Below, one piece after another: positions 29,872 through 52,025 of a stretch of DNA of 64,000 bases. Origin of the DNA: Arachis hypogaea (taxonomy: Eukaryota; Streptophyta; Magnoliopsida; Fabales; Fabaceae). Numbering within the stretch: position 1 is the first letter of the stretch; every line of letters begins with the position of its first letter. The notes beneath the pieces are model-generated. The model was not told the DNA's origin, ran no database searches, and saw nothing but the letters and a program-made list of their open reading frames with translations. Where the stretch lies: positions 82,282,445-82,346,444 of the forward strand of contig NC_092051.1 of assembly GCF_003086295.3 (NCBI RefSeq). Direction: 5' to 3'. The position numbers and the translations under genes are program-made.

Positions 29872-29880
29872 TATAAATAG
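29872..29880 (+). promoter_or_regulatory. TATA box of C
   Basis: TATAAATAG, conserved in the 3' LTR at 58805-58813. Confidence 0.7.
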
Positions 29881-30936: not shown

Positions 30937-30954
30937 TGGCGCCGTTGCCGGGGA
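30937..30954 (+). other. Primer binding site of C
   Basis: TGGCGCCGTTGCCGGGGA, exact tRNA-Asp complement, six bases after the LTR end. A second truncated copy lies inside the LTR at about 30895-30907. Confidence 0.93.
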
Positions 30955-32902
30955 TTGTTCGAGTTTGGACAACTGACGGTTCATCTTGTTGCTCAGATTA
31001 GGTAATTTTATTTTAATTTTAAGTTTTTGTTTTTATTCTTTTTATTTTTGAAAAATCAAAAAAAAAGTTTTAAAAAAATATATATATATATTTTTCAAAA
31101 AAATTTAATTTATGTTCTTCAGAATTTTTAAGAAGGAATTCTAGAGTTTCATGAAACATGTTGAAGCCTGGCTGGCTGTAAAGCCATGTCTAATTCTTTT
31201 GGACCGAGGCTTCCACTCATCAGCACAGAAGCAAGTTGAATGAAGTATCAGGTGTTGTATGTCTGATTTGTATCTGCTAAAGCTTGGCTGGCCATTGGGC
31301 ATGTCTAGTGTTTTGGACCGGAGCTTTCACTGAAAGCTTGGCTGGCTAGTAAGCCATGTCTAATTCCTGGACCGGAGTTTTAGACTAACATTGCAAGATT
31401 CCTGAAATTCCTATTAAAAATTTTGAAATCCTTATTTTCTTTTTTTTCAAAATAATTTTCGAAAATTCAAAAAAAAATTAATAAAATCATAAAAAATCAA
31501 AAATAATTTGATGTTTCTTGTTTAAGTCTTGTGTCAGTTTTTAAGTTTGGTGTCAATTGCATGTTTATCTCTTTCTTGCATTTTTTGAAAATCCATGCAT
31601 TGCATTCTTCATGATCTTCAAGTTTTTCTTGGTAAATCTTCTTGTTTGATCTTTAAAATTTCTTGTTTTGTGTCTTTTCTTGTTTCTCATATGCATTTTT
31701 GAATTATTAATGTCTCAACCATGAAAATTTCTAAGTTTGGTGTCTTGCATGTTTTTTTTCTTTTCTTAAAATTTTTCAAAAATAAGTATTGATGTTCATC
31801 TTGATCTTCAAAGTGTTCTTGGTGTTCATCTTGACATTCATAGTGTTCTTGCATGCATCATTTGTTTTGATCCAAAATTTTTATGCATTGAGTCTTTTTT
31901 ATGTTTTTCTCTTTCTTCATTAAAAATTCAAAAATCAAAAAAATATATTTCCCTTATTTTCTCATAAATTTTCGAAAATTGGTTTGATTTAGTCAAAAAG
32001 TTTTTAAATCTAGTTGTTTCTTACGAGTCAAATCAAATTTTCATTTTAAAAAAAAATTCTATCTTTTTCAAATCTTTCTCAAAAATCAAATCTTTTTCAT
32101 TTTTCTTTTATGATTTTTGAAAATTTCAAATTGATTTTCAAAAATATTTTTCTTATTTCCATTTCATAATTTCAAAATCTTTACTAACAATTAATGTGAT
32201 TGATTCAAAAATTTTTCAAGTTGTTACTTTCCTATTAAGAAAGGTTCAATCTTTAAAGTTTAAATCATATCTTTTTGTTTCTTGTTAGTCAAGTAATCAA
32301 CTTTAATTTTCATAATCAAATCTTTTTAAATTTCTTTTTCAAAATAAGTTTCAATCACATCTTTTTCAAAATCAATTTCAAAATCTTTTCTAACTTCTTT
32401 TCTAACTTCCTATCTTTTCAAAATTTGATTTTCAAATATTTTTCAATTAATCACTTAACTTTTTGTTTGATTTTAAAAAGTTTACTATTTCAATCATATC
32501 TTTTCAAAACTACCTAACTAATTCTCTCTCTAATTTTCGAAAATCACCTTCCTCTTTTTCAAAATTCCTTTTTAATTAACTATTTGTTTTAAATTTTAAA
32601 TTGATTTAATTTTATTTTTCTTTCTTAATTCTCGAATTTTAACTTTTAATTTTAAAAACAAAAATATTTTTCTTTTCTTTTCAATTATTTTTGAAAATTC
32701 TCTCCACCTCATCTCTTTCTAAGTATTTTATTTATCTACTAACACTTCTCTTCCATCCAAGAATTCAAACCCACTCTTCACCTCTGTGTTTGGATTCTTC
32801 TCTTTTCCTTCCTTTATTCTTCTCTTCTTATACTTACATAAAGAATCTCTATACTGTGACATAGAGGATTCCATATTTTCTTTTCAGTTTTCTTTTTTTC
32901 AT
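30955..32902 (+). other. Long AT-rich leader of C
   Basis: About 1.9 kb before gag, with no supported gene. It holds a three-copy structured repeat (31161-31386) and tract-like motifs AAGTTTGGTGTC at 31543-31554 and 31733-31744. The rest is A/T-rich with TTTTTCAAAAAT-like strings. Confidence 0.7.
31161..31386 (+). repeat. Three-copy hairpin repeat in C leader
   Basis: Units at 31161-31217, 31277-31333 and 31332-31386 share GCTTGGCTGGC..GCCATGTCTA..TTGGACCGGAGC. The outer arms pair in each copy (GAAGCC/GGCTTC, AAAGCT/AGCTTT, AAAGCT/AGTTTT with a G-U pair). An inner TGGCT/AGCCA stem is clear in copies 1 and 3. A related unit is in the LTR at 29947-29973. Leader position suggests packaging or dimerisation, as inference. 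Confidence 0.65.
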
Positions 32903-34279
32903 ATGAGCAGGAACAAGGATAAGAACATTCTTGTTGAGGCTGATCCTGAACCTGAAAGGACTCTGAAGAGGAAGCTAAGGGAAGCTAAAGCACAACTCTC
33001 TGGAGAAAATCTGACAGAAATTTTTGAAAAAGAAGGAGATATGGCCGAAAATAATAACAATGCAAGGAAGATGCTTAGTGACTTTACTGCATCAAATTCC
33101 AATTTACATGGAAGAAGCATCTCAATCCCTGCCATTAGAGCAAACAATTTTGAGCTAAAGCCTCAATTAGTTTCTCGGATGCAACAGAACTGCAAGTTTC
33201 ATGGACTTCCATCAGAAGATCCTTTTCAATTCTTAATTGAGTTCTTGCAGATCTGTGATACTATTAAGACCAATGGGGTTGACTCCGAGGTCTACAGGCT
33301 TATGCTTTTCCCGTTTGCTGTAAGAGACAGAGCTAGGATATGGTTAGACTCTCAACCTAAGGATAGCCTGAACTCTTGGGATAAGCTGGTCACGGCTTTC
33401 TTAGCCAAGTTCTTTCCTCCTCAAAAGCTTAGCAAGCTTAGAGTGGATGTTCAAACCTTCAAACAGAAAGAAGGTGAATCCCTCTATGAAGCTTGGGAGA
33501 GATATAAGCAACTAACCAAAAAGTGTCCTTCTGACATGCTTTCAGAATGGACCATCCTGCATATATTCTATGATGGTCTGTCTGAATTATCAAAGATGTC
33601 ATTGGACCATTCTGCAGGTGGATCCATTCACCTAAAGAAAATGCCTGCAGAAGCTCAAGAACTCATTGACATGGTTGCAAATAACCAGTTCATGTACACT
33701 TCTGAAAGGAATCCTGTGAGTAATGGGACGCCTCAGAGGAAGGGAGTTCTTGAAATTGATACTCTGAATGCCATATTGGCTCAGAATAAAATATTGACTC
33801 AGCAAGTCAATATGATTTCTCAGAGTCTGAATGGATTGCAAGCTGCATCCAACAGTACTCAAGAGGCATCTTTTGAAGAAGAAGCTTATGATCCTGAGAA
33901 CCCTGCAATAGTAGAGGTGAATTACATGGGGGAACCCCATGGAAATACATATAATCCCTCATGAAGAAATCATCCAAATTTCTCATGGAAGGATCAACAA
34001 AAGCCTCAACAAGGCTTTAATAATGGTGGAAGAAACAGGTTTAACAATAGCAATCCTTTCCCATCATCCACTCAGCAATAGACAGAGAATTCTGAGCAGA
34101 ATCCATCTAGCTTAGCAAATTAGTCTCTGATCTATCTAAGGCCACTTTAAGTTTCATGAATGAAACAAGGTCCTCCATTAGAAATTTGGAGGCACAAGTG
34201 GGCCAGCTGACTAAAAGAGTCATTGAAACCCCTCCTATTACTCTCTCAAGCAATACATAAGAGAATCCAAAAAGAGAGT
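32903..34279 (+). pseudogene. Gag of element C, upstream of the B insertion
   Basis: ATG at 32903 (MSRNKDKN) or 33041 (MAENNNN); the open frame upstream of 32903 looks like leader sequence. Capsid motifs: RANNFELKPQLVSRMQQNC, LMLFPFAVRDRARIWL, FLAKFFPPQKLSKLR, LYEAWERYKQLTKKC and the post-capsid EAQELIDMVANNQF. The frame is open to 33964, where TGA replaces Trp in NPS-RNHPNF. The Asn/Gln-rich tail continues with further TAG codons until B cuts it at 34279. No zinc knuckle was found in the visible part. Confidence 0.88.
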
Positions 34280-35815
34280 TGATGAGCGGATATTTTATAT
34301 GCTTTTTGGGGTTAATTTCATATAGTTTTTAGTGTGTTTTAGTTAGTCTTTAGTTTATTTTTAGTAGTTTCTAGGCAAAATTCATATTTCTAGACTTTAC
34401 TATGAGTTTGTGTATTTTTCTGTGATTTCAGGTATTTTCTGGCTGAAATTGAAGGAGCTGAGCAAAAATCTTATTCAGGCTAAAAAAGGACTGCTGATGC
34501 TGTTGGATTTTGACCTCCCTGCACTCAAAATGGATTTTTTGGAGCTACAGAACTCCAAATGGCACGCTTCAAATTGCTTTGGAAAGTAGACATCCAGGGA
34601 TTTCCATCAATATATAATAGTCCATACTTTGCTCAAGGATAGATGATGTAAACTGGCGTTCAACACCAGTTCCATGCTGCTGTCTGGCGTCCAGCGCCAG
34701 AAACAAGTTACAGAGTGGAGTTCAACGCCAGAAACAGGTTACAACCTGGCGTTGAATGCCTAAAACAGCCCAGGCACGTGAGAAGCTTTAGTCTCAGCCC
34801 CAGCACATACCAAGTGGGCCCCAAAAGTGGATTTCTGCACAATCTATCATAGTCTACTCATTTTCTGTAAACCTAGGTTATTAGTTTAGTATTTAAACAA
34901 CTTTTAGAGACTTGTTTTGTATCTCATGACATTTTAGATCTAAACTTTGTACCTTTTGATGGCATGAGTCTCTAAACTCCATTGTTGGGGGTGAGGAGCT
35001 CTGCTGTGCCTCAATGAGTTAATGCCAGTATTTCTGTTTTCTATTCAATCACGTTTGTTCCTATCTAAGATATTCATTTGCGCCTTATTATGATGAATGT
35101 GATGATCCGTGACACTCATCACCATTCTCAACCTATGAACGTGTGCCTGACAACCACCTCTGTTCTACATTAGATTGAATGAGTATCTCTTAGATTCCTT
35201 AATCGGAATCTCCGTGGTATAAGCTAGAATCCATTGGCAGCATCCTTGAGAATCCGGAAAGTCTAAACCTTGTCTGTGGTATTCCTAGTAGGATTCTGGG
35301 ATTGGATGACTGTGACGAGCTTCAAACTCGTGAGTGCTGGGCGTAGTGACAGACGCAAAAGGATAGCGAATCCTATTCCGGTATGATCGAGAACCTACAG
35401 ATGATGAGCCGTGCGGTGACAGCGCACCTGGACCATTTTCACTGAAAGGAAGGATGGTAGCCATTAACAACGGTGATCCTCCAACACACAGCTTGCCATA
35501 GGAGGGATGTGCGTGCGTGAAGAAGAAGATAGAGAGAAAGCAGAAATTCAAAAGGCAGAGCATCTCCAAAACTCATATTCTCATTTACTGCATAACAAGT
35601 AACCTTTAATTCATGCTCTCTTGTTCATTTGCAAGTCAATTGATAACCACTAATTAATATCCTGACTAAGAGTTGCAAGATAACCATAGCTTGCTTCAAG
35701 CCAACAATCTCCGTGGGATCGACCCTTACTCACGTAAGGTATTACTTGGACGACCCAGTGCACTTGCTGGTTAGTTATGCGGAATTACATAGTGTGAAGT
35801 AATTTTCGTGCACTA
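34280..35815 (+). repeat. 5' LTR of B
   Basis: It starts TGATGAGCGG and ends GTGCACTA (the other LTR ends GTGCACCA). GGCGTT palindromes lie at 34652-34760, and a weak TATA-like TATTTAAAC at 34890-34898. R-U5 contains a block also found in C LTRs, from GACGAGCTTCAAACTCG to the GGACGACCCAGTGCACTT stretch. Confidence 0.94.
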
Positions 35816-35821
35816 AGTTTT

Positions 35822-35839
35822 TGGCGCCGTTGCCGGGGA
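35822..35839 (+). other. Primer binding site of B
   Basis: TGGCGCCGTTGCCGGGGA, exact tRNA-Asp complement, six bases after the LTR. Confidence 0.94.
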
Positions 35840-36706
35840 TTGTTCGTGTTTGGACAACTGACGCTTTATTTTGTTGCTTAGATTAGGAAAAACTTTTCTT
35901 TTTGGTTTAGAGTCTCTTATTATTGTTTCTGGTTAAAGTTTTAGAATCCTTATTTTCTGTTTCAAAAAAAAATTTTTCGAAAATTATTTTTTTTATTCTT
36001 AGTTATTTAAAAATACTTCTTCAAAACAAGTGTTATATTTATTGCCAAATTGGCTAGAGCGTTGGTCTAAGTTCGTGGCAATTTGGTATACTCTTTTCAA
36101 AATCTTCTTTTTCAAAAATAATAATTTCTCTATTAAATTTTGTGCCAAACTTTAAGTTTGGTGTTTTCTTGTTGATTTCCCTTTGGATTTCGAAAATTTT
36201 AGTTTGGTTTTCTAAAAATTTTAAGTATGGTGTTCTTTCTTCATGTTCTTGTGTTCTTGTGAGTCTTCAAAGTGTTCTTGAGTTTTCCTTGTGTCTTGAT
36301 CTTAAAATTTTTAAGTTTGGTGTTCCTTGGTGTTTTCCCTCCAAAATTTTCAAAAACAAGGAGCATTAAATCTAAAAATTTTAAATCTTGTGCTATCTTA
36401 TTGTTTTTTCTCTCTCCTCTTTAAATTCAAAAATATCTTTTCTCTCTATTTTAAAGTAAATTTTCGAAATTTACCTTTAAAATTCAGATTTTTATTTCAA
36501 AATTTAAAACCTTTTTCAAAAATCATCATATCCTTTTCAAAACTTCCTAACCACTTTCTCTCTCCTCATTTTTTTCGAAAATTTTCAACCATTTTTATTT
36601 ATTTTATTTTATTTTAATTTATTTCATTTTCAAAATAAATAAATAAATAAATAAATAAATAAAAATAATTTTTTATATTTTTTTATATCATCTCCCTTTC
36701 TCCATC
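35840..36706 (+). other. Leader of B
   Basis: AT-rich and without a gene. Three AAGTTTGGTGTT-like motifs are present (36154-36165, 36223-36234 with one change, 36313-36324). An inverted repeat CCAAATTG..CAATTTGG lies around 36044-36087. An AAAT simple repeat is at about 36635-36662. Confidence 0.65.
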
Positions 36707-37070
36707 ATGGATCTAAGTGGAAATGAACAGTCCAGGAGGACTCTGGGGTCATATGCTAACCCCTCTACTGCTTCATATGGGAGTAGTATCTGCATACCTT
36801 CCATTGGATTCAGTAGCTTTGAGTTGAATCCTCAGCTCATTATCATGGTGCAGCAAAGCTGCCAGTATTCTGGTCTTCCACAAGAAGAACCTACAGAGTT
36901 TCTGGCACAGTTTTTACAAATTGTTGACACAGTATATGATAAGGAAGTAGATCAGGATGTCTACAGATTATTACTGTTTCTATTTACTGTAAAAGACAAT
37001 TGAAGAAGCTCAAGAGCTCATTGATACAGTTGCCAGAAATCAGCATCTGTACATAAGCAGTGGCTCTTCC
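36707..37070 (+). pseudogene. Gag of B, N-terminal part with internal deletion
   Basis: Starts MDLSGNEQSRRTL at 36707 with the capsid N-terminal motifs FELNPQLIIMVQQSCQ and YRLLLFLFTVKDN, then a stop at 37001-37003. The next bases encode EEAQELIDTVARNQ, which in C follows the capsid. About 130 residues of capsid, including the equivalents of AKFFPPQKLSKLR and LYEAWERYKQL, are therefore deleted and the frame is shifted. Such a gag could not form a normal capsid. Confidence 0.87.
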
Positions 37071-39443
37071 ATGAAAGAAGAGGCTAAAACAGTAACTGCT
37101 GAACTCAGTCCTGCAGAGCAAGCTGCTGAATTCAATCAGCAATTGGATTTTCTAACAAAGCAGTTAGCTGAATTCAAGGATAAACTACAAGAAACAAGGA
37201 TGGCTAATATAAACCTGGAAGTGCAATTAAAGCAAACAAAGCAGCAGCTGTCAAGACAAATAATAGAAGAATGCCAAACAGTTCAATTAAGAAGTGGGAA
37301 AGCACTAAATGCCCCATTTCAAGGCAGCAGAAAACTAAGAAATGAGCAAACCACCCAAAATCCATCTGAGGACAGTAAGAGCCCAGGAAAAAATAATTCT
37401 GGCGCTAAAACGCCAGAAATTAGGTGGAAGGCTGGCGTTGAACGCCCAGATCATGCTCAGAACTGGCGTTCAATGCCAGAAACAAGCAAGGATCTGGCGT
37501 TGAACGCCCAAAAGGGGCACAGTTCTGGCGTTCAGACGCCAGGAACAGATGAGGAGCTGGCATCTAACGCCACTCTAGCTTCTAACTCTGGCACTCAATT
37601 GCCAGTGAGGGATCAGACACACACAAGTGCTGATGATAACCCATCTAAAAAGGCTTCTTCAACCACTTCTGTAGGAAATAAACTTACAGCAACTAAGGTT
37701 GAGGAATATAAAGCCAAGATACTTTATCCTCAAAAACTCCGCCAAGAGGAGCAGGATAGGCAATTTGCTCGCTTTGCAGATTATCTTAGGACTCTTGAAA
37801 TAAAGATTCCATTTGCAAAGGCACTTGAGCAAATACCTTCTTATGCCAAGTTCATGAAAGAGATCTTGAGTCATAAGAAGGATTGGAGAGAAACTGAAAG
37901 AGTTCTCCTCACTGAAGAATACAGTGCAGTCATTTTGAAAAGCTTTCCTAAAAAGCTTAAAGACCCTGGGAGTTTTCTGATACCATGCACATTAGAAGGG
38001 AATTGCACTAAAACAGCTTTATGCGATCTTGGGGCAAGCATCAATTTAATACCTGCTTCCACCATCAGAAAGCTTGGGTTAACTGAAGAAGTTAAACCAA
38101 CCCGGATATGTCTCCAACTTGCTGATGGCTCCATTAAATACCCATCAGGGGTGATTGAAGACATGATTGTCAGAGTTGGGCCATTCACCTTTCCCACTGA
38201 CTTTGTAGTGCTGGAAATGGAGGAGCACAAGAGTGCTACTCTCATTCTAGGAAGACCCTTCCTAGCAACTGGACGAACTCTCATTGATGTCCAACAGGGG
38301 GAAATAACCCTGAGAGTCAATGATGATGAGTTTAAATTGAATGCTGTCAAAGCCTTGCAGCATCCAGACACATCAAAAGACTGCATGAAAGTTGATCTTA
38401 TTGACTCCTTGGTAGAAGAGATCAACATGGCTGCGAGTCTCGAATCAGAGTTGGAAGACATCTTTAAAGATGTTCAGCCTGATTTGGAGGATTCAGAGGA
38501 AATGAAAAAGCCTCTGAAATTTCCTCTGGAAGAGGAAAAATCTCCTATACCCGAGCTCAAACCATTACCACCATCCCTGAAATATGCATTTCTGGGAGAA
38601 GGTGACACTTTTCCATTGATCATAAGCTCTGCCTTAAATCCACAGGAAGAGGAAGCACTTATTCAAGTGCTAAGGACACACAAGACAGCTCTTGGGTGGT
38701 CCATAGGTGACCTTAAGGGCATAAGCCCAGCTAGATGCATGCACAAAATCTTATTGGAGGATAATGCTAAACCAGTGGTTCAACCACAGAGGCGGCTAAA
38801 TCCTGCCATGAAGGAAGTGGTGCAGAAAGAGGTCACCAAATTACTGGAGGCTGGGATTATTTATCCTATTTCTGACAGCCCCTGGGTGAGACCTATCCAA
38901 GTTGTCCCCAAAAAGGGAGGCATGACAGTGGTTCATAATGAAAAGAATGAACTGGTTCCTACAAGAATAGTTACAGGGTGGCGCATGTGTATTGACTACA
39001 GAAGGCTCAATACAGCCACCAGAAAGGATCATTTTCCTTTACCATTCATAGACCAGATGCTAGAAAGACTGGCAGGTCATGATTATTACTGCTTTTTGGA
39101 TGGCTACTCAGGCTATAACCAGATTGCAGTAGATCCCCAAGATCAAGAGAAAACAGCATTCACATGTCCATCTGGAGTGTTTGCTTACAGAAGGATGCCA
39201 TTTGGGCTGTGTAATGCGCCTGCAACCTTCCAGAGATGCATGCTCTCTATTTTCTCTGATATGGTGGAACAATTTCTGGAAGTCTTCATGGATGACTTCT
39301 CAGTATATGGAGACTCATTCAGCTCCTGTCTTGATCACTTGAAACTAGTTCTAAAAAGATGCCAAGAGACCAACCTAGTTTTAAACTGGGAAAAATGTCA
39401 CTTTATGGTGACTGAAGGGATTGTCCTTGGGCATAAAATTTAA
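37071..39443 (+). pseudogene. B gag C-terminus, protease and reverse transcriptase (long open frame)
   Basis: A 790-codon frame. Residues 1-70 are coiled coil, followed by ECQTVQLRSGKAL. A linker (37398-37605) is made of the GGCGTT palindrome array read in frame. The protease core is ALCDLGASINLIPAS and ILGRPFLATGRTLIDV (about 38010-38300). RT begins with LPPSLKYAFLGEG and has RMCIDYRRLN, DGYSGYNQIAVDP, MPFGLCNAPATFQRCM, the catalytic FMDDFSVYG (about 39286-39312) and NWEKCHFMV. It ends at TAA 39441-39443 after GHKI, where relatives continue in the same frame. Confidence 0.9.
37398..37605. repeat. GGCGTT palindrome array inside the B gag-protease linker
   Basis: Several copies of CTGGCGTTNAACGCC-type dyads (for example around 37429-37447 and 37495-37513) stay open in frame, giving variable Ala/Asn/Glu/Pro-rich peptide. 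The same motif fills B U3 and the B 3' non-coding region. Confidence 0.85.
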
Positions 39444-40421
39444 AACAAGGGAATAGAAGTGGATCAAGCAAAAATAGAGGTAATTGAAAAATTACCACCA
39501 CCTGCCAATGTTAAGGCAATTAGAAGCTTTCTGGGGCATGCAGGATTCTATAGGAGGTTTATAAAGGATTTTTCAAAAATCGCAAAACCTCTGAGCAATC
39601 TGCTAGCTGCTGACACGCCATTTGTGTTTGACACAGAGTGTCTGTAGGCGTTTGAAACACTGAAAGCCAAGCTGGTCACAGCACCAGTCATTTCTGCACC
39701 AGATTGGACATTACCATTTGAGCTAATGTGTTATGCCAGTGATCACGCCATTGATGCAGTATTGGGGCAGAGGCATAACAAGCTTCTGCATGTCATTTAT
39801 TATGCTAGCCGTGTTTTGAATGATGCCCAGAAAAATTACACAACCACAGAGAAAGAATTACTTGCAGTGGTTTATGCCATTGACAAGTTTAGATCCTACC
39901 TAGTGGGATCAAAAGTGATTGTGTACACTAACCATGCTGCTCTTAAATATCTACTCACAAAACAGGATTCAAAACCCAGGCTCATAAGATGGGTGTTGCT
40001 TCTGCAAGAGTTTGATATAGAAATAAGAGACAAAAAAGGGACAGAGAACCAAGTGGCTGATCATCTGTCCTGGATAGAGCCAATAGAAGGGGCGTCATTC
40101 CCCTCTCTTGAAATCTCTGAGACCTTTCCGGATGAGCATTTGTTTGCCATTCAGGAAACACCATGGTTTACAGACATTGCAAACTACAAAGCTGCAAGGT
40201 TCATTCCCAAGGAGTACAGTAGGCAACGAAAGAAAAAATTAATTACTGATGCAAAGTACTACTTGTGGGATGAACCCTATCTCTTTAAGAGATGTGCAGA
40301 CGGAATAATCCGGAGATGTATGCCTAGAGAAGAATCACAGAGAATCCTATGGCATTGCCATGGATCACAATATGGAGGCCATTTCGGAGGTGAGCGAACA
40401 GCCACCAGGTCCTCCAATGTG
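39444..40421 (+). pseudogene. B RT thumb, RNase H and integrase zinc domain
   Basis: Continues the frame with KAIRSFLGHAGFYRRFIKDF. A TAG follows at 39645-39647, then the RNase H core. The first catalytic Asp is replaced by Tyr ([19 protein letters not shown]). [15 protein letters not shown] and [10 protein letters not shown] follow, the latter with Asn where relatives have Asp. The integrase N-terminus is recognisable as [11 protein letters not shown] and [17 protein letters not shown]. The frame is lost near 40405-40420 before the CxxC half of the zinc domain. Confidence 0.87.
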
Positions 40422-41438
40422 GCTTCTATTGGCCCACACTCTATAAAGATTCCCGAGAGTTTGTACGTAACTGTGACAGTTGCCAAAGAGCTGGTAATCT
40501 GCCTCATGGTTACGCCATGCCTCAACAAGGAATCTTGGAGATTGAGTTGTTTGATGTATAGGGAATTGACTTCATGGGACCTTTTCCACCATCATACTCA
40601 AACACTTATATTCTGGTGGCTGTTGACTACGTATCAAAATGGGTAGAGGCCATTGCCACACCCACCAATGATACTAAAACAGTGCTGAAGTTCCTTCAAA
40701 AATATATCTTCAGTAGGTTTGAGGTCCCTAGAGTACTAATCAGTGATGGGGGCACTCACTTCTGCAACAAACAGCTTTACTCTGCCATGGTTCGATATGG
40801 GATTCGCCACAAGGTGGCAACTCCATATCATCCGCAAACTAATGGGCAAGCTGAAGTCTTTAACATAGAGCTAAAAAGAATCCTAGAACGGACTGTAAAC
40901 ACCCGTAGAAAGGATTGGGAGGAGCTTGGATGATGCTCTGTGGGCATACAGAACAGCATTCAAGACTCCTATAGGGACCTCTCCATACCAACTTATGTAT
41001 GGTAAGGCATGTAACCTTCCCGTGGAACTGGAACATAAAGCCTACTGGGCAACCAGATTCCTAAAGTTTGATGCCAAATTAGCTGGAGAAAAAAGATTGC
41101 TCCAGCTAAATGAACTAGAGAAATTCAGATGCACTGCTTTCAAAAATGCCAAGCTTTATAAAGAAAAATAAAAAAAATGGCATGACAGGAAGCTGTCATC
41201 TAGAAGCTTTGAACCAGGACAAAAAGTTCTGTTGTTTAACTCTAGGCTCAGGCGATTCCCTGGGAAACTGAAGTCCCGATGGAGGGGACCATATGTGATT
41301 ACAAGTGTATCACCATATGGTTATGTGGAGCTTCAAGATATTGATTCTGATAAGAAGTTCATTGTTAATGGACAGAGAATCAAGCACTATCTTGAAGGCA
41401 ATGTTGAGCAAGAGTGCTCAAGGCTGAAGCTAGATTAA
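40422..41438 (+). pseudogene. B integrase core and C-terminal domain
   Basis: After the frameshift the CxxC region is still readable at about 40465-40500. TAG at 40558-40560 replaces Trp in [11 protein letters not shown]. The DDE core has [21 protein letters not shown] and [12 protein letters not shown], with all three acidic residues kept. A frameshift near 40918 separates the rest ([16 protein letters not shown]). A TAA lies at 41169-41171, and the GPY module RWRGPYVI precedes the stop at 41436-41438. Confidence 0.88.
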
Positions 41439-41479
41439 AAGCTCAGCAAGGTCCAGCTAAAGACAATAAAGAAGCGCTT

Positions 41480-41497
41480 GCTGGGAGGCAACCCAGC
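41480..41497 (+). promoter_or_regulatory. Post-stop hairpin H1, B
   Basis: GCTGGG-AGGCAA-CCCAGC is a perfect 6-bp stem beginning 42 nt after the integrase stop. Stem position 2 is C-G here, G-C in N, T-A in A and C. Confidence 0.78.
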
Positions 41498-41664
41498 CAT
41501 GGGGCATCACTTCCTCTAAGCATTTTGCCCTATTCTTGATTATATTTGTTTATATAAAGTTCATTGATCCTAAGGTAAAGAGTCAATTGTATAAGTTCAC
41601 AGGGTTACAGAAGGATTCTGCACGCAAAACAGAAAAAAAGAGCTCACTGGCAAGAAAACGCCAA

Positions 41665-41950
41665 TAAAAGTCTGTTTTGGGCGTTCAATGCCCAACAGAA
41701 GCATCCACTGGGCGTTGAACGCCAGTAAGGATAGCCATCTGGGCGTTGAACGCCAGAAAGAAGCTCTTTCTGGGCGTTTAACGCCAGGTTTACAGCGTTC
41801 TGGGCGTCCAGAAAAATGCCCAGTAACAAAGGACTTCCTGGCGTTCAACGCCAGAAATAAGCAGCAGCTGGGCGTTGAACGCCCAGGAGAAGCAGCATTT
41901 GGGCGTTGAACGCCCAAAACATGCAGCGTTTGGGCGTTCAAATGCCAGGA
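41665..41950. repeat. GGCGTT palindrome array downstream of B pol
   Basis: Eight or nine units of TGGGCGTTGAACGCCAG or CCC variants with spacing of 30-40 bases. Open frames on both strands here are artefacts of the repeat. Confidence 0.87.
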
Positions 41951-42466
41951 TGGTGGGGAGGAGGTAAATTCATTTTTTCTTCATATTTTTCATTTTAATC
42001 CTAATTTTCATGTTCCAATTCATGATTTCTTGCATAAACATGTTAAGAACCCTGATTTCTAAAATCCCTAATTTCTAAAAACCCTTCTTTAAAAATATTA
42101 AATGTATCTTAATCCATAAGTACAAATCCTTTTTTTCAATCCAACTCAACTCTTTTTCAAAATGTTCAAAACAAATCTCTCTCTTTTCATTCAAAAATCT
42201 TTTCAACTAAGCAATATCTTTTTCAAATCTCCATACTATCTTTTTCAAAATTTCAAATTTATCTTTTTCAAATATCTTTCATATCTTTCCAATTTTAAAT
42301 CATATCTTTTCTTATCATATTTTTTCTAAAAATCATATCTTCTATCTTATCTTTCTCCCTATTTTTCGAAAACCCACCCCCCTCCCTTTAAATATGGGTT
42401 CGGCCTCCCTCCCCTCCCATCCATCATTACACCTAGCTCTCCTTCTCTCCCTCTCCTTTCTTTTCT
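41951..42466 (+). other. AT- and pyrimidine-rich segment before internal hairpin, B
   Basis: Repeated CTTTTTCAAA-like strings, then a C/T-rich run (about 42355-42465). No gene. Its translation joins ORF3 in frame with a hydrophobic stretch, but ATG 42526 is the better start. Confidence 0.6.
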
Positions 42467-42503
42467 TTTGCTTGAGGACAAGCAAACCTCTAAGTTTGGT
42501 GTG
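42467..42503 (+). promoter_or_regulatory. Internal hairpin plus tract copy upstream of ORF3, B
   Basis: TTTGCTTG-AGGA-CAAGCAAA (42467-42486), then after 5 nt AAGTTTGGTGTG (42492-42503). The terminal module of B has stem GTTGCTTG/CAAGCAAC, so the outer pair changed on both sides. Confidence 0.75.
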
Positions 42504-42525
42504 CTTATCCGTGATCACTAAGATC

Positions 42526-43659
42526 ATGGCTCCTAAAGGAAAACAACCCACTCCAAGAGGCAAGAAAGAGAGTGTTCCAAAACCACTTTGGAATCAAGGG
42601 AAGTTCTTAACTAAAGAACATTCAGACCATTATTACAAAATAATGGGTCTAAGATCAGTGATCCCGGAAGCCAAATTTGATCTGAAAGAAGACGAATATC
42701 CGGAGATCCAGGAGCAAATTCGAATCAGGAACTGGGAGATCCTAGCCAATCCTGAAACGAAAGTGGAAAGGAATATGGTCCAGGAGTTCTATGCTAATAT
42801 ATGGCATACAGACAGGCAAAGACTATCTAGATCTGATATCTATGACTATCGGACCGTGGTCAGAGGAAAGATTATTCATACCCACCCTGACAAGATCAGA
42901 GAGATCTTAAAGCTACCTCAGCTGAAAGATGATCCAGACTCCTTCAATAGGAGAATGATGAGAACAGACAAGGGCCTGGATAAGATTCTAGAGGATATAT
43001 GTATCCCTGGAGCCAGGTGGACCACCAGCACGAAGGGTGTTCCAAATCAACTCAAAAGAGAAGATCTCAAACTAGTCGCCAGAGGATGGCTGGATTTCAT
43101 TGGGCATTCTCTGCTGCCCACCAGCAACTGTTCTGAAGTCACTATTAGAAGAGCAGTGATGATCCATTGCATCATGATGGGAAAAGAAGTGGAAGTTCAT
43201 CAACTGATTTCAACTGAATTTTACAAAATTGCAAACAAAAATTCCAAAGATGCTAGGTTGGCTTATCCAAGCTTGATTTCTATGCTCTGTAAGGACGCTG
43301 GAGTAAGGATGGGAATAACTGAGTATATCTAAATTGAGCGACCAATCACCAAAGCATCAATAGAAAAACAACAAGCACAGGATGACCCCATCAAGAAGAA
43401 AACACAGGAATTTCTCCCAGAAATCCCTCAATCTAAATACTAGGAGTACCTTGAAACATCAGTTACCAAGATGCAAGAAGCTATGGAACAAATAATGAAA
43501 GAACAAAAGGAACAAAGTAGCATTCTCTGCTATATGATTAAAGAACAGGAGGAGCAAGGGCGCGACTTAAGGGAATTGAAGCGCCAGAAATTATCTCTTG
43601 AAGGACCAAGCACCCCGCAGATTAGAGGAACATCCACTCCCCAGAACAAAGGTTGTTAA
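42526..43659 (+). pseudogene. B ORF3: 'putative plant transposon protein' type, in the position after pol
   Basis: ATG 42526 gives MAPKGKQPTPRGKKE, a basic start, then a conserved domain: KEDEYPEIQEQI, NMVQEFYANIW, VRGKIIHTHPDKIREIL, LARGW-like VARGWLDFIGHSLLPTSN and RRAVMIHCIMMGKEV. By memory this matches the plant family called putative plant transposon protein (Transposase_32-like), often found after pol in Athila-type elements. A TAA at 43330-43332 and a TAG at 43441-43443 interrupt it. The C-terminal end (43471-43659) is coiled coil rich in Lys/Glu/Gln. C has a diverged homologue in the same place. No membrane segment is visible in the domain, so an envelope role is not supported. Confidence 0.75.
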
Positions 43660-44709
43660 ATTCCAATCTTAGCCATAACTCTGTGATAACTGTTCTTATT
43701 CTAGTTTTACCTTAGGAGTCATATAATAGTAATTAGTATCTATATTTTTTATTTTATCTCCAATTAAGCTATAATTTAATTTTCTCATCATTATCAAACA
43801 TGAATAAAATAGAAGAATTTCTTTAGAATAAGAGGCAATAATTTTCGAGTTTTTAATAAGAACATTCTAATTATTTACATGTGGTGGCAATGCTCTCTGT
43901 CTTCTGAATGAATGCTTGAACAGTGCATATGTCTTTTGAATTTGATGTTTAAGACTGTTAAATATGTTGGCTCTTGAAAGAATGATGAACATGAGACATG
44001 TTATTGATAATTTAAAAAATCATAAGAATGATTCTTGAAGCAAGAAAAAGCAGCAAAGAACAAAGCTTGCAGAAAAAAAAATAGAAAGAAAAAGAAAAAG
44101 CAAGCAGAAAAAGCCAATAACCCTTAAAACCAAAAGGCAAGGGTAAATAAAAAGGATCCCAAGGCTTTGAGCATCAGTAGATAGGAGGGCCTAAAGGAAT
44201 AAAATCCCGGCCTAAGCGGCTAAACTAAGCTGTCACTAACCATGTGCTTGTGGCGTGAAGGTGTCAAGTGAAAACTTGAGACTGAGCGGTTAAAGTCAAG
44301 GTCTAAAGCAAAAAGAAGAGTGTGCTTAAGAACCCTGGACACCTCTAATTGGGGACTTTAGCAAAGCTGAGTCATAATCTGAAAAGGTTCACCCACTTAT
44401 GTGTCTGTGGCATTTATGTATCCGGTGGTAATACTGGAAAACAAAGTGCTTAGGGCCACGGCCAAGACTCATAAAGTAGCTGTGTTCAAGAATCAACATA
44501 CTAAACTAGGAGAGTCAATATCACTATCTGAATTCTGAGTTCCTATAGATGCCAATCACTCTGAGCTTCAATGGATAAAGTGAGATGCCAAAACTGTTCA
44601 GAAACAAAAAGCTACTAGCCCCGCTCATCTAATTAGAATCTGAGCTTCACTCAAAAACTCTGAGATATTATTGCTTCTTAAATTATTTGTATTCTATTTT
44701 ACTTATCTA
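43660..44709 (+). other. B 3' non-coding region with highly conserved block
   Basis: No gene. A block at about 44150-44590 is about 95 percent identical by eye to C 57617-58050. It includes the paired CATGTG modules (44241-44257 and 44398-44414) and a hairpin TCAAGT-GAAA-ACTTGA (44264-44279). Confidence 0.75.
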
Positions 44710-44747
44710 GTTGCTTGAGGACAAGCAACAGTTTAAGTTTGGTGTTG
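44710..44747 (+). promoter_or_regulatory. Terminal AGGA hairpin and polypurine tract, B
   Basis: GTTGCTTG-AGGA-CAAGCAAC (44710-44729), perfect 8-bp stem, 5 nt spacer, then AAGTTTGGTGTTG (44735-44747) abutting the 3' LTR. Confidence 0.85.
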
Positions 44748-46287
44748 TGATGAGCGGATATTTTATACGCCTTTTGGGGTTAATTTCATATAGTTTTTAG
44801 TGTGTTTTAGTTAGTCTTTAGTTTATTTTTAGTAGTTTCTAGGCAAAATTCATATTTCTGGACTTTACTATGAGTTTGTGTGTTTTTCTGTGATTTCAGG
44901 TATTTTCTGGCTGAAATTGAGTGAGCTGAGCAAAAATCTGATTCAGGCTGAAAAAGGACTGCTGATGCTGTTGGATTCTGACCTCCCTGCACTCAAAATG
45001 GATTTCCTGGAGCTACAGAACTCTAAATGGAGCGTTTCCAATTGCGTTGGAAAGTAGATATCCAGGGCTTTCCAGCAATATATAATAGTTCATACTTTGC
45101 TCAAGGATAGACGACGTAAACTGGCGTTCAACGCCAGTTCCATGCTGCTGTCTGGCGTCCAGCGCCAGAAACAAGTTACAGAGTGGAGTTCAACGCCAGA
45201 AACAGGTTACAACCTGGCGTTGAACGCCCAAAACAGCTCAGGCACGTCAGAAGCTTTAGTCTCAGCCCTAGCACACACCAAGTGGGCCCCAAAAGTGGAT
45301 TTCTGCACTATCTATCATAGTCTACTCATTTTCTGTAAACCTAGGTTACTAGTTTAGTATTTAAACAACTTTTAGAAACTTGTTTTGTATCTCATGACAT
45401 TTTAGATCTAAACTTTGTACCTTTTGACGGCATGAGTCTCTAAACTCCATTGTTGGGGGTGAGGAGCTCTGCTGTGCCTCAATGAGTTAATGCCAGTATT
45501 TCTGTTTTCTATTCAATCATGTTTGTTCCTATCTAAGATATTCATTTGCGCCTTATTATGATGAATGTGATGATCCATGACACTCATCACCATTCTCAAC
45601 CTATGAACGTGTGCCTGACAACCACCTCCGTTCTACATTAGATTGAATGAGTATCTCTTAGATTCCTTAATCGGAATCTCCGTGGTATAAGCTAGAATCC
45701 ATTGGCAGCATCCTTGAGAATCCGGAAAGTCTAAACCTTGTCTGTGGTATTCCTAGTAAGATTCTGGGAATGGATGACTGTGACGAGCTTTAAACTCGTG
45801 AGTGCTGGGGATAGTGACAGATGCAAAAGGATAGTGAATCCTATTCCGGTATGATCAAGAACCTACAGATGATTAGCCGTGCGATGACAGCGCACCTGGA
45901 CCATTTTCACTGAAAGGAAGGATGGTAGCCATTGACAACGGTGATCCTCCAACACACAGCTTGCCATAGGAGGGACGTGCGTACGTGAAGAAGAAGATAG
46001 AGAGAAAGCAGAAATTCAAAAGGCAAAGCATCTCCAAAACTCCAACATATTCTCATTTACTGCATAACAAGTAACCTTTAATTCATGCTCTCTTGTTCTT
46101 TTGCAAGTCAATTGATAACCACTAATTAATATCCTGACTAAGAGTTGCAAGATAACCATAGCTTGCTTCAAGCCAACAATCTCCGTGGGATCGACCCTTA
46201 CTCACGTAAGGTATTACTTGGACGACCCAGTGCACTTGCTGGTTAGTTGTGCGGAATTACATAGTGTGAAGTAATTTTCGTGCACCA
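44748..46287 (+). repeat. 3' LTR of B
   Basis: 1540 bp with the same ends as the 5' LTR; differs at a few tens of sites by eye. GGCGTT palindromes at 45118-45235. Followed by agagt. Confidence 0.95.
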
Positions 46288-47245
46288 AGAGTGCAAGGCC
46301 ATTACCTTGCTTGGGGTGGCCAAACCCAAAGAGGAAGAGGAGGACGTGAATCCTAGTGAGGAAGACCTCCTGGGACGTTCACTGACCAATAAGGAGTTTC
46401 CCTTTGAGGAACCAGAGGAATCTGAGGCTCATCTAGAGACCATAGAGATTCCATTGAACCTCTTTTTACCATTCATGGGCTCTGATGACTATTCATCTTC
46501 TGAAGAAGATAAAGACATTGCTGAAGAGCAAGTTGCTCAATATTTATGAGCAATCATGAAGCTGAATGCCAAATTATTTGGTAATGAGAATTGGGAGGAT
46601 GAACCTCCATTACTCATCAAGGAACTAAATGCCTTGGTTCAGCAAGCTCTACCTCAAAAGAAATAGGATCCTGGTAAATTCCTAATTCCCTGTAACATAG
46701 GAACTATGACCTTTGAGAAGGCTCTGTGTGACTTGGGGTCAGGAATAAACTTAATGCCACTCTCTGTAATGGAGAAACTTGGGATCTTTGAGGTACACGT
46801 TGCCATAATCTCATTAGAGATGGCAAAAAACTCAAGAAAATAGGCTTATGGACTAGTAGAGGACGTGCTAGTAAAGGTTGAAGGCCTTTACATCCCTGCT
46901 GATTTCAAAATCATAGACACTGGGAAGGAAGAGGATGAATCTATCATCCTTGGAAGACCCTTCCTAGCCACAGCAAGAGCTGTGATTGATGTGGACAGAG
47001 GAGAGTTGGTCCTCCAACTGAATGAGGATAACCGTGTGTTTAAAACTCAAGGATCTCCTTCTGTAACCATGGAGAGGAAGCATGAAAAGCTTCTCTCACT
47101 GCAGAGTCAACCAAAGCCCCCACAGTCAAACTCTAAGTTTGGTGTTGGGAGGCCACAACCAAACTCTATGTTTGGTGTTGAACCCCCATATTCAAACTCT
47201 AAGTTTGGTGTTGGGAGGTTCCAACAATGCTCTGAATATCTGTGA
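46288..47245 (+). pseudogene. Protease region of element C
   Basis: Resumes after B with the pre-protease segment ECKAITL and an acidic stretch. The protease core is ALCDLGSGINLMPLSV and, from 46862, VEDVLVKVEGLYIPADF and ILGRPFLATARAVIDV. Nonsense codons lie at 46547-46549, about 46663 and about 46841. The tail contains three copies of a repeat NSKFGVG, which is the translation of the tract-like motif AAGTTTGGTGTTG. It ends at TGA 47243-47245. RT does not follow; the H1 hairpin is 49 nt downstream. Confidence 0.85.
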
Positions 47246-47293
47246 GGCTCTATGAGAGCTCACTGTCAAGCTATTGACATTAAAGAAGCGCTT

Positions 47294-47311
47294 GTTGGGA
47301 GGCAACCCAAT
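47294..47311 (+). promoter_or_regulatory. Post-stop hairpin H1, C
   Basis: GTTGGG-AGGCAA-CCCAAT, a 6-bp stem with a closing G-U pair, 49 nt after the protease-frame stop. Confidence 0.75.
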
Positions 47312-47457
47312 GTTATTTAATTATATCTATTTATTTTCTATTGTTATTTTATGTTTTCTTTAGGTTGATGATCATGTGGAGTCACAAAAACTACTGAAAA
47401 ATCAAAAATATAATGAAAAACAGCTTTAAAAACAGCTCACCCTGGAAGAGGAACTTA

Positions 47458-47660
47458 CTGGTGTTTAAACGCCAGTAAGAAGCATCAAACTGGCATTTAA
47501 TGCCAGAAAGAAGCATCAAGCTGGAGTTAAACGCCAGAAACAAGCACCAGACTGGCGTTTAACGCCAGAACAGAGCATGAAATTGGCGTTAAAAGCCAGA
47601 AACAAGCAACAAGCTGGCGTTTAACGCCAGACATGCATGCTAAGGGCGTTTTACACGCCT
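47458..47660. repeat. GGCGTT palindrome array downstream of C protease
   Basis: Six units of CTGGCGTTTAACGCCAG or degenerate forms spaced about 30 bases apart, in the same relative place as in B. Confidence 0.85.
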
Positions 47661-48082
47661 AATTTGAGCAGGGATGTTAAGTTCTTGACCCCATTGGATC
47701 TGTAGATCCCACAGGATCCCCTTAGGATCTATGGACCCCACAGGATCCCCACATTTTCTTCTCTCCTCTTCACACCTTTTCATAACTCTCTTCCACAAAT
47801 GCCCCTCACCAATCACCTCAATCACTCTTCCCCATCACCTCTTCACCACTCACATCTATCCTCTCTTCCCCAAAAACCCCACCTACCTCCAAAATTCAAA
47901 CTCTTTTCCCTTCCAAACCCAACCCTAATGGCCGAACCCTAAACCTCCCCCCACTCCTATATAAACCCTTCATTCCTTCATCATTTTCACACAACATAAC
48001 CCTCTCTTCTTCCCCTTGGCCGAATACACACCTCTTTCCCTCTCCTCCATTTTTCTTCTTCTTCTCCTTCTTTCTTTCTTCT
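47661..48082 (+). other. C non-coding segment before internal hairpin
   Basis: C/T-rich, no gene. Contains two tandem copies of a GGATCTNTGGATCCCACAGGATCCCC-like unit near 47693-47750. Confidence 0.55.
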
Positions 48083-48120
48083 TTTGCTCGGGAACGAGCA
48101 AACATTTTATGTTTGGTGTG
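48083..48120 (+). promoter_or_regulatory. Internal hairpin plus tract copy upstream of ORF3, C
   Basis: TTTGCTCG-GGAA-CGAGCAAA (48083-48102), then 6 nt, then ATGTTTGGTGTG (48109-48120). One stem pair is C-G here, T-A in B: a compensatory change. Confidence 0.75.
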
Positions 48121-49009
48121 GTAAAAGCATAGCTTTTTGTTTTTTCATAACCATTAATGGCACCTAAGGCCAGAGAAACCTCAAGAAAGAGGAAAGGGAA
48201 GGCAATTTCTTCCACCTCTGAGTCATGGGAGATGGAGAGATTCATCTCAAAGGTCCATCAAGACCACATCTATGAAGTTGTGGCCAAGAAAAAGGTGATC
48301 CTAGAGGTCCCTTTTAAGCTCAAAAAGAGAGAATATCCGGAGATCCGACAAGAGATTAGAAGTTCTCTCTAATCCTATTCAACAAGTCGGGATCTTAATG
48401 GTTCAAGAGTTCTATGCAAACGCATGGATCACTAAGAACCATGATCAAAGTGTGAACCCGAATCCAAAGCATGGGCTTACTATGGTTCGGGGGAAATACT
48501 TAGATTTCAGTCCAGAAAATGTAAAGCTGGCGTTCAACTTGCCAATGATGGAAGAAAACGCACGCCCCTCCACTAGAAGGGTCAACTTTGATCAAAGGTT
48601 GGACCAAGTCCTCATGGACATATGTGTGGAAGGAGCTCAATGGAAAGTTAAATCAAGAGGCAAGCCGGTTCAATTGAGAAGATTGGACCTTAAGCCTGTA
48701 GCTAGAGGATGGCTGGAGTTTATTCAATGCTCAATTATTCCTACTAGCAACCGGTCTGAAGTTACTATAGACCGGGCCATCATGATCCATAGTATCATGA
48801 TTGGGGAGGAAGTGGAAGTTCATGAGATTATACCTCAAGAACTCTACAAGGTGGCTAACAAGTCCTCCACTTTGGCAAGGTTAGCCTTTCCTCACCTCAT
48901 TTGTCACCTCTACAATTCGGCTAGAATTGACATAGAAGGAGACATCCTCATTGAAGAGGACAAGCCCATCACTAAGAAAAGGATAGAGCAAACAAGAGAT
49001 CATGGACCT

Positions 49010-50540
49010 TGACGTTAGGATTTTTGCCAGTAAAAAATTTTATAAAAATAGTCACGTTGTAGGTATAGTTTCTAAACCAACAGAAATCCCTTCGTACAAA
49101 CGTTTTGGTTGTCACAAGTAACAAACCCCTAAATAAATTGATAAGCGAAGTATTTAAACCTCGGGTCATCTTCTCAAGGAACTGCAGGGAAGTATGTTCT
49201 TATTATCGGTTATGGAGATTGTAAATCGGGGTTTTGAAGATGAGGAGCAATTAATTTAAATTGCAATTGAAATAAGTAAAAGACTGTAAAGTAAATAAAT
49301 AACTGTAAAATAAACTTTTGGCAAGGTATGAGAAATTAGAAGTCATATACTAGTTATCCTTATCAATAATGATGAAGATTGAATCTTAATTCCACTCAGT
49401 TAGTCTTTACTTAAAGTAAAGAAAAGTCAAATGACTAATTAGTTAGATCCTCAAATCCTAGTTAATCCCTGAGGAAATATTAGGATTATTGAAGTTCAAT
49501 TCAATTAGCAAAGATAATAATTATCAATCATGTTTGAGTTTGATACTCCTGAGTTACTGATTTCTTAACCAAGACCAAAAAGGAAAAAGTAAATCTACTG
49601 GAATAAAAATGCCTTCAAATTGGAAGCAACAGTAACATGAACAAAAGAAAGCAATAATAAACTGAAATACCTCAAATAACATTAATTCAAAGAATAATCT
49701 GTAACATAGAAGAATTCATAAATTAAATTGAGAAGATAAATAAAAAGAATATTGAACCTGTGATTGAAGTTGTAAGTTGAAATAATAAAGTTGAAATCCT
49801 AATTCTAATCCTAATCCTAAGAGAGAGGAGAAAATCTCTCTCTCTCTCTAAAAACTACATCTAATTCTAAAATTGTGAATATGAAAGCATGATTAGGAAT
49901 GGATGCATTCCCCCACTTTATAGCCTCTAATCTGTGTGTTCTGGGCTGAAAACTGGGTCAAAAGCAGCCCAGAAATTGCTCCCTGCAATTTCTGTTACGT
50001 TCAGGTCGCGAGCAAGTGACGCGGAAGCGTCGTCCACGCGTCCGCGCGGATTGAAGTTCGCAGATGCGACGCGGGCGCGTCATTCACGCGTTTGCGTCCT
50101 CTAACTTTGGGGCCGCGATGCCAAATTATATATCAAATCGAAGCCCCGGACGTTAGCTTTCTAACGCAACTATGACCACGTCGTTTGGACCTCTGTAGCT
50201 AAAGTTATAGCCATTTGAGTGCGAAGAGGTCAGGCTGGACAGCTTAGCAGTTTCTCCAACTTCTTGTATTCCTTCATCTTTTGCATGCTTCCTTTCCATC
50301 CTCTGAGCCATTTCTGCCCTGTAATTTCTGAAATCACTTAACACACATATCAAGGCATCTAATGATAATAAGAGAGGATTAAACATAGGGAACTTAAGGC
50401 CAAAGAAGCATGTTTTCAATCAAAGCACATAATTAGGAAGGCAAATGTAAAACCATGCAAATAGTATGAATAAGTGGGTAAAGAGTTGATAAAAACCACT
50501 CAATTGAGCACAAGATAAACCATAAAATAGTGGTTTATCA
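49010..50540 (-). repeat. 3' LTR of N3
   Basis: Ends CCTAACGTCA in minus orientation, as in N2. U3 ORF 50153-50419 (88 codons) is open. ACGCG palindromes at about 50018-50100 and TATA box 49916-49922. Confidence 0.94.
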
Positions 50541-50578
50541 ACCTCCCCACACTTAAACAATAGCATGTCCTCATGCTA
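50541..50578 (-). promoter_or_regulatory. Terminal AGGA hairpin and polypurine tract, N3
   Basis: Tract AAGTGTGGGGAGGT (50541-50554) at the LTR edge; hairpin TAGCATG-AGGA-CATGCTA (50561-50578), one pair shorter than in N1. Confidence 0.83.
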
Positions 50579-52025
50579 AGATCAAGAGAAGCTATAAAGA
50601 TGAAGAGGAATGGTAGATTAATATGAAATGCAACCTATCTATACGAATGCAACTACATGCAAAATGTTTCTACCTACTTAGTTAAAAGTAAATAAGTTCT
50701 CCAAGACAAAAATAATTCAGATTTCACTAATTCAAATTATACAATAAAAGACAAGTAAACTTGTAAGAAGATAGCTCATGAAAGCAAGGAACATAGAATC
50801 AAGCATTGAACCCTTACTGGTAATGTATATCACTCTAATCTCTCAAGTGTCTAGGGTTAATCACTCTATTCTTCTCTAATCATGCCTTCTAAACCTTGTT
50901 CTTCATCTAACCAATCCACAAATATTTAGCATAATAATGCAAACATCATGAGGTCTTTTCAAGATTGTAATGGGGCTAAAGTAAGGGTGAGGATATATGT
51001 ATGGCCAAGTGAGCTATAATATGAATCTTTAATTAGCCTAAGCTCTCACCTAATATACATATACTCTATATACTTTTAAATTCATGCCTAGCTACCCATA
51101 ATTCCCACTTTTATATGGTTCTCATACTCATGTACCAAAATTTTGATATTTCTTTACTTTTATCACATGTGCATTGATCTTTTTATTAACTTAGCATTGG
51201 GTTAATTTTGTCCCCTTATTTATTTACTTATTTATTGAATATTTTTGGATTTTTCTCTCTTTTTTTTGTAGAGAAATAAACATAACTTATCAATGCACAT
51301 GGATTTTCCATTATTTTTCTATTTTGGTTTTTTTTTCATGAGTAGGTTCCCAAATTCCCAATATTCAAATAAATTAGAAACATGATACATTCCCTTATTA
51401 ACCCATGTTCCCACAATTTCCCCACACTTAGTTGATGCACAATCTCTATCTTAAGCTAACCAAAGATTCAATTGGGGTATTTACTTTGTTTTTCTGCTTA
51501 AGGCTAGTGATGTGGTAAAATATAGAATAAATGGGATTAAAAAGGCTCAAGGTGGCAAACAAAGGTGATTGAAAGGGTAGGCTTATTTGGGATAAGTGAG
51601 TAAAAATTCAAATAATGGCCTCAATCATATGCAAGCATGTAAATATACTAAATAATGGACATACAGACTAGAACAAAATATAGATTACAATCATAGAGAA
51701 GGAAACACACAAGAATAAAATATTGTGGTTAAATAATGTAACCATATAAATAAGCTCAAAGTCTCACAGGTTGTGTGTTCTTAGCTTTTTAAACTATGTT
51801 CCAAATACAACTTCAAATAAGTTTTAATAGAAAAGTTTTTTTTTAATTTAAATTAGTGAAATACTATAAAAATTTCTTGAAAAAGAAAATATTACTTCAA
51901 CCAAGTGGTAGTTAAATGCATAAAATCAAACAAACATGCAATTAAATATGCAAATGTAGCAATTAGCAAAGAAAATAAAATATTGGTGTTGAGAAGAAAA
52001 TACTAACCCATGGAGATCAGTATCG
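50579..52025 (-). other. N3 3' non-coding region
   Basis: AT-rich counterpart of N1 7125-8580. No gene seen. Confidence 0.6.

Follow-up and report, generated by a model that had tools for sequence, protein, structure and literature searches.

A covarying hairpin within a two-hairpin module downstream of the terminal stop codon in plant Ty3-type LTR elements, probably a cis-acting RNA signal

In a 64,000-nucleotide stretch of the peanut (Arachis hypogaea) genome (contig NC_092051.1; hereinafter, the window), a short hairpin recurs near the end of the last open reading frame (ORF) of six LTR elements, those encoding pol as well as others, raising the question whether this hairpin is an RNA signal required by the elements or a remnant of common ancestry or coding. 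A pattern search of the whole window with GNTGGGAGRCAACCCANY yielded six matches, all exact, with no seventh hairpin inside the window; when up to three mismatches were allowed, 100 dinucleotide shuffles averaged 1.0 matches and never exceeded 4. The hairpins are GCTGGG-AGGCAA-CCCAGC in element B (41480..41497, plus strand), GTTGGG-AGGCAA-CCCAAC in element A (10334..10351, minus strand), GTTGGG-AGGCAA-CCCAAT, with a G-U outer pair, in element C (47294..47311, plus strand), and GGTGGG-AGACAA-CCCACC in elements N1 (5560..5577, plus strand), N2 (16215..16232, minus strand) and N3 (53418..53435, minus strand). A preceding sequence-only reading had listed these six 18-mers, and its positions and strands were recovered with 0 mismatches each, as were the stems, the AGACAA or AGGCAA loops and the change of the second pair between G-C, T-A and C-G.

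The host elements were delimited by self-comparison. Element A (1..24387, minus strand; terminal repeats 1-969 and 23414-24387, 96.5%) is interrupted by N1 (2298..10054, plus strand; LTRs 97.1% identical) and N2 (12033..18106, minus strand; LTRs 97.4% identical), and element C (29275..59866, plus strand; LTRs 29275-30932 and 58208-59866, 96.2%) is interrupted by B (34280..46289, plus strand; LTRs 34280-35817 and 44748-46289, 96.2% identical) and N3 (49052..56758, minus strand; LTRs 94.9% identical). The coding part of one more element, D (RT, RNase H and integrase; 59867..64000, plus strand), runs off the window end. In every element, the hairpin is on the strand of the host ORFs. N1, N2 and N3 belong to one lineage, so the six hairpins represent four lineages. 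The terminal repeats of element A contain internal repeats with a period of about 117 nt and weak self-complementarity.

The reported hairpin, denoted SL2, is the second half of a module of about 50 nt that consists of another hairpin, SL1 (GTCN...NGAC), a spacer, SL2 and a U-rich stretch; the sequence-only reading thus captured SL2 and overlooked the upstream SL1 and spacer. In B, SL1 is GTC-CAGCTAAA-GAC, with 3 pairs only (41451..41464, plus strand), and is followed by the spacer AATAAAGAAGCGCTT (41465..41479, plus strand); in C, it is TGTCAA-GCTA-TTGACA (47264..47279, plus strand), and in both N1 (5528..5542, plus strand) and N2 (16250..16264, minus strand), GTCC-AACTTAA-GGAC. The N3 equivalent, GTCAAATTTAAGGAC, has lost the inner pair (53453..53467, minus strand), and SL1 is missing from the lowest-energy folds of N2 and N3. 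The window copy of A has no SL1 in the stretch corresponding to the spacer and SL1 (10352..10381, minus strand); two copies from the same flank cluster (L059 and L129) have an SL1 with 7 pairs. The spacer is 15-18 nt long (ATTAAAGAAGCGCTT and relatives; TTTAACTAAAAGTGCTA in N). Among 14 hand-picked copies, 12 have 4-7 consecutive SL1 pairs, with B having 3 and the A copy none worth naming, and the pair changes are U-A/C-G in outer and A-U/C-G in inner positions. The GTC...GAC arrangement is correctly placed in 91 of 103 copies. T-richness over the 60 nt that follow SL2 is clear in C-type copies, in cluster 1 and in N, and mild in the B and A types. Overall, SL1 is less well supported than SL2. 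A pseudoknot between the SL1 loop and the spacer (H-type, or exoribonuclease-resistant RNA) was considered, given that the difference between A, B and C on the one hand and N on the other at first seemed compensatory, and was abandoned when, at one candidate pair, of 30 copies altered at the spacer base, 29 kept the old loop base and only 1 matched.

Genome-wide, in an assembly of 2,557,474,382 bases (2.56 Gb), GNTGGGAGRCAACCCANY has 58,750 matches (29,532 + 29,218 by strand), compared with 0 + 1 for the reversed-pattern control, and three non-overlapping patterns together give 67,766 matches in this one genome. Variants of individual stem pairs were then counted. Pair 3 variants (5' side not T) are found in 1,008 copies (control, 0), and among 100 listed, hand counting gave 85 C-G pairs and 15 mismatches; pair 1 variants (5' base not G, partner not C) number 8,008 (control, 0), with 92 of the 100 listed paired (A-T or C-G), 5 A.A and 3 T.T. 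Core pair 5, which served as an internal control, is other than G in 462 copies, and among 100 of these listed the partner C is kept in 97, compensated in 1 and replaced by A in 2. Thus, fixed differences between families are compensated, whereas single-copy mutations are not.

Pair composition was assessed in 151 copies (137 non-N, including one from a bacterial assembly discussed below, and 14 N), a non-random sample drawn in part with variant patterns, in which the three inner SL2 pairs are invariant through the search design. Across the 137 non-N copies, pair 1 is G-U in 84, G-C in 32, A-U in 11, C-G in 7 and mismatched in 3; pair 2 is U-A in 93, C-G in 32, A-U in 6, U-G in 4 and mismatched in 2, and the N families add G-C. 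The SL2 stem types accordingly comprise G-C, G-U, A-U and C-G at pair 1, all four Watson-Crick combinations at pair 2, and U-A and C-G at pair 3. Covariation statistics were computed for 24 chosen rows under the two-hairpin structure with 500 shuffles. Two-sided change cells number 25, against 8.0 +/- 2.5 in shuffled alignments, none of which (0/500) reached this value, and the covariation score is 0.280 versus 0.125 (0/500), with slid structures at or below 0.098. Two of the five measures are not clearly above the shuffles: 'pairs with a change on both sides' (4 versus 3.9; 332/500) show no excess in the 24 rows, and 'further pair types' are barely above shuffles there (59/500). In the same rows, the paired fraction is 96.5% for SL2 and 76.7% for SL1, and RNAalifold predicts SL2 only, with SL1 absent. 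The covariation proposed from the six window copies is real for SL2 in the enlarged copy set: SL2 is a covarying hairpin with the fixed core GGGAGRCAACCC.

Compensatory change would also maintain a palindrome in DNA, e.g. a binding site of a dimeric protein. However, the most frequent outer pair of the non-N copies, G-U, is asymmetric in DNA, as is the loop, which makes this explanation very improbable; the prevalence of G-U implies that the hairpin acts as sense RNA. The least probable explanation of all is that the module has no function and reflects ancestry and exchange between elements, or a coding remnant. It is true that all carriers with identified proteins are Ty3-type elements and that most non-N copies have two reading frames running uninterrupted through the module (frame 0 in 129, frame 1 in 135 and frame 2 in 3 of the 137). 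In the 14 N copies, however, frames 0 and 1 are open in 1 copy each and frame 2 in 12. With no frame open in both groups, and with the module located 3' of the stop codon, a shared coding origin, the alternative raised at the outset, fails to account for it; among the non-N copies taken by themselves, such an origin is unlikely though conceivable. Furthermore, the module persists while its flanks drift to background identity. Between representatives drawn from 11 flank clusters, of which some are related (e.g. two N-type and two B-type), ungapped identity is 0.23-0.28 from -200 to -41 relative to SL2, 0.37 from -40 to -21, 0.62 from -20 to -1 and 0.80 within SL2, falling to 0.41-0.42 in the first 40 nt downstream, 0.33 in the next 20 and 0.23-0.29 farther on. 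Hence the flanks of the families are unrelated, at about 0.25 compared with 0.62-0.80 in the module. The contrast between compensated differences among families and uncompensated mutations of the core pair likewise speaks against the absence of function.

According to the sequence-only reading, each hairpin starts some 40-50 nt after a stop codon. In the window, this is the case for N1 (-51), N2 (-52) and C (-51) but not for A and N3, where the nearest frame of at least 100 codons ends at -114 and -106, respectively, or for B, where the closest end of such a frame is no nearer than -549; the upstream frames of several window copies are broken. Among sampled genome copies in which an ORF of 80 or more codons ends within 150 nt of SL2, the modal stop of the four large clusters is at -51 (25/34), -43 (13/16), -44 (14/20) and -52 (5/11). 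The identity of the stop codon varies (TGA, TAA or TAG). We infer that the full-length RNA is translated up to that stop. The ORF upstream of the C-type module, previously taken for a protease, has a sub-threshold protease match in one copy (L041; E 0.0022) and none in another (L045).

A seventh hairpin was predicted 3' of the pol stop of element D and was found beyond the window end. There, an integrase-like end is followed by TGA, by SL1 AGCGTCC-AACTTAA-GGACGTT and by an N-type SL2, GGTGGA-AGACAA-CCTACC, that starts at the 89th base past the window, with the stop at -46. Compared with the N form, this SL2 has two changes, by which the innermost pair is lost and one G-U is left. By eye and unscored, the sequence downstream in D resembles that of the N elements; this likeness makes it probable that the N elements are non-autonomous and related to the D family. 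Their description as unrelated thus needs qualification: the module type and, by eye, the downstream sequence are common to N and the pol-encoding D, so that N is not wholly unrelated. The protein encoded in the N1 frame (3964-5508, with kin in N2 and N3) contains no Pfam domain and has 43 related proteins (34 from Arachis and 1 from Stylosanthes, the top two from A. hypogaea and A. duranensis).

Taken together, compensatory change, the G-U pairs of the sense strand, the unrelated flanks and the hairpin predicted in D lend good support to the original assignment of the hairpin to the class of cis-acting RNA signals kept by autonomous and non-autonomous elements. The interpretation that we favour is that, in one group of plant Ty3-type LTR elements, the module works in cis as sense-strand RNA; it is very likely functional, and its fold is probably important for the element. 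It is retained where no pol is recognised (in the C type and N), which indicates that it acts in cis, and the fixed core points to a protein reader. The protein would recognise the fixed core and the loop on the full-length RNA.

What the module does is a separate question, on which the surrounding ORFs bear. An ORF of the PF20167 family lies 3' of the hairpin in B (42211..43329, plus strand) and C (48305..49009, plus strand), as would be expected of an element that controls translation of a downstream ORF, and structures close to a stop codon can stimulate readthrough. N3 has in this region a 158-codon frame without a Pfam match; in A, N1 and N2, however, no sense frame of at least 150 codons is found between the hairpin and the 3' LTR, which disfavours the translation of a downstream ORF suggested by the sequence-only reading. 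Readthrough was dropped on account of the variable stop codons and the cluster-dependent in-frame extensions: among the listed values, the next stop in frame follows after 0-99 codons, namely 2 codons in cluster 1 (22/22) and either 61 or 29 for the majority of cluster 2, and one N copy has none within 100 codons. We consider either variant very unlikely. A role in RNA processing, i.e. an internal poly(A) site, a splice acceptor or export control that produces a second RNA species, is somewhat less improbable, though still unlikely. The spacer often includes ATTAAA, AATAAA, GATAAA or AGTAAA, followed by SL2 and the U-rich stretch, and splicing has been reported for barley Bagy2 in the available text of PMC7264820; conversely, a poly(A)-like signal is absent from most N spacers and from that of D, and the lack of a sizeable downstream sense frame in A, N1 and N2 weighs against a second RNA as well.

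The near-constant spacing from the stop codon, the distance from the hairpin to the 3' LTR (about 1.6 kb in A to 3.3 kb in B, from the element coordinates) and the U-rich stretch make stop-proximal RNA protection our first choice of mechanism, held tentatively and with less than even confidence. Under this mechanism, the module 3' of the stop would shield the full-length RNA and thereby could increase its stability. One close parallel is the RSV stability element, which, in the available part of PMC4764554, is located directly 3' of the gag stop, depends on position and works via PTBP1. Both lie just after the stop of an unspliced retroelement RNA (the modal stop is 43-52 nt before SL2, and 46 nt in D), and a further likeness lies in the pyrimidine-rich binding sites of the RSV element as presented there (PMC4764554). 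By analogy of position, the module might protect RNA in the way the RSV element does, through PTBP1 and against UPF1-dependent decay. The RSV element, however, is about 400 nt long and has several pyrimidine sites, whereas the peanut module spans about 50 nt and has a structured core and a hairpin with a fixed hexaloop. Moreover, the constant spacing may be inherited rather than selected, and a structured core read by a protein is equally compatible with packaging.

Indeed, a packaging or dimerisation signal bound by Gag, kept by non-autonomous elements for encapsidation by autonomous partners, is a possibility that we rank just below stop-proximal protection and consider nearly as likely. Small cis-acting RNA structures that the element needs are known in retroviruses (psi), and the module resembles psi and the packaging-dimerisation hairpins of Ty1 in being such a structure. 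That the C type and N retain the module, the N elements having the module type of the pol-encoding D, fits this possibility; so do the fixed core and the apparently fixed loop, which, judging from the variants of the core pair, look like features recognised by a protein. Packaging, however, does not require a constant distance from the stop codon, and the module sits 3' of pol, not in the leader; the Ty1 packaging sequences are at the 5' end, as given in the available text of PMC5454406.

The module also co-occurs with apparent replication signals, in line with packaging: a primer-site sequence in 4 of the 6 elements and another hairpin before the 3' LTR in all 6. The sequence TGGCGCCGTTGCCGGGGA, a putative tRNA-Asp primer site, is present exactly at 35822 (B), 30937 (C), 3734 (N1) and 55207-55224 on the minus strand (N3), with no exact copy in A or N2, and is thus common to pol-encoding and other elements. 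Base pairing between the SL2 loop (GGCAAC) and the primer site (GTTGCC) fits B and C but is not supported overall, as the AGACAA loops of N1 and N3 break it while the primer site is unchanged. The other hairpin precedes the 3' LTR by 15-20 nt (upstream of 44748 in B and of 8620 in N1, for example) and is GTTGCTTG-AGGA-CAAGCAAC in B, with the loop GGGA in C, CTTGCTT-AGGGAC-AAGCAAG in A, and TTAGCATG-AGGA-CATGCTAA in N1 and N2, N3 having 7 pairs; the stems vary between elements while the loop is much alike. As for chance, 49 of 2000 shuffled 80-mers of B attain 7 pairs.

In the portion of PMC1142308 available, Diaspora and Calypso, of the Athila/Calypso/Diaspora lineage of plant Ty3 elements, are described as having a tRNA-Asp primer site a short distance internal to the LTR; the same portion describes no hairpin following pol, and the word 'stem' does not occur in the main text. 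B and C carry an additional ORF (PF20167) between pol and the 3' LTR, a candidate counterpart of the env-like ORF of Athila/Calypso-type elements. Conserved non-coding motifs of plant LTR elements, including a stem-loop near the PPT, are reported for Sireviruses; these, however, are Ty1/copia elements, and the sequence of the module is absent from their motifs in the available text (PMC2829016). The module offers a short RNA signal, backed by covariation and present in tens of thousands of copies, for which the variable and the fixed stem pairs have been mapped, so that reporter tests in which the stem is broken and restored are straightforward. Its sequence can also be used to search for elements of this group, whether coding or non-coding. 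To our knowledge, little is known of how the genomic RNA of plant LTR elements is chosen, protected and packaged, or of what their non-autonomous partners need.

Outside peanut, a single scan across assemblies of bacterial and archaeal genomes yielded 6 loci, 5 of which, by eye, share nothing beyond the pattern. The sixth, L038, comes from the assembly of the symbiont Candidatus Burkholderia humilis, on a contig with further genes for a tnp2-type transposase and a Ty3 gag. Here, GTCA-GGCTGG-TGAC is followed by an 18-nt spacer and CTTGGGAGGCAACCCATG, with a stop at -50 that ends a 175-codon frame without a Pfam match; L038 is the sole locus of the 6 with a blastn match to the window, over the module of C (79.6%, E 4e-4). 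It is a single locus, and its SL2 pair 2 is U.U. We consider L038 to be probably plant DNA within a bacterial assembly, the host of this symbiont being a Psychotria; presumably, similar strings exist in other plant genomes. A bolder proposal, which we regard as less likely than not, is that the module represents an undescribed class of plant retroelement RNA: a two-hairpin module after the terminal stop that would predate the split between peanut and Psychotria-type plants, serve as a termination-linked shield or loading site and be mandatory for mobilisation of non-autonomous elements.

In IMG/VR, the 18-mer gave 31 loci, by eye without the preceding spacer, and 8 window ORFs had no tblastn match there; a longer pattern gave one locus, without a recognised module feature. 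A protein search with RNase H produced 2 stretches, 0 of them confirmed. Among open-licence PMC papers, the core strings retrieved 2, both of them smooth-muscle papers as judged from the listing, and a description of the hairpin was not found in the titles and abstract beginnings of the matches listed; the silence of these open-licence papers is weak evidence of novelty. A search of the B module with the Rfam covariance models gave no match at E values up to 5. Over the whole window, Rfam reported 2 matches at gathering scores, neither covering a hairpin. Both are matches to the plant snoRNA R71 (21173-21279, plus strand, and 33434-33541, minus strand; scores 41.4 and 44.1, with gathering at 40) and both are probably false. 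The stretches of A and C that contain the two sites resemble each other (66% identity), and the second site is antisense in the gag ORF of C.
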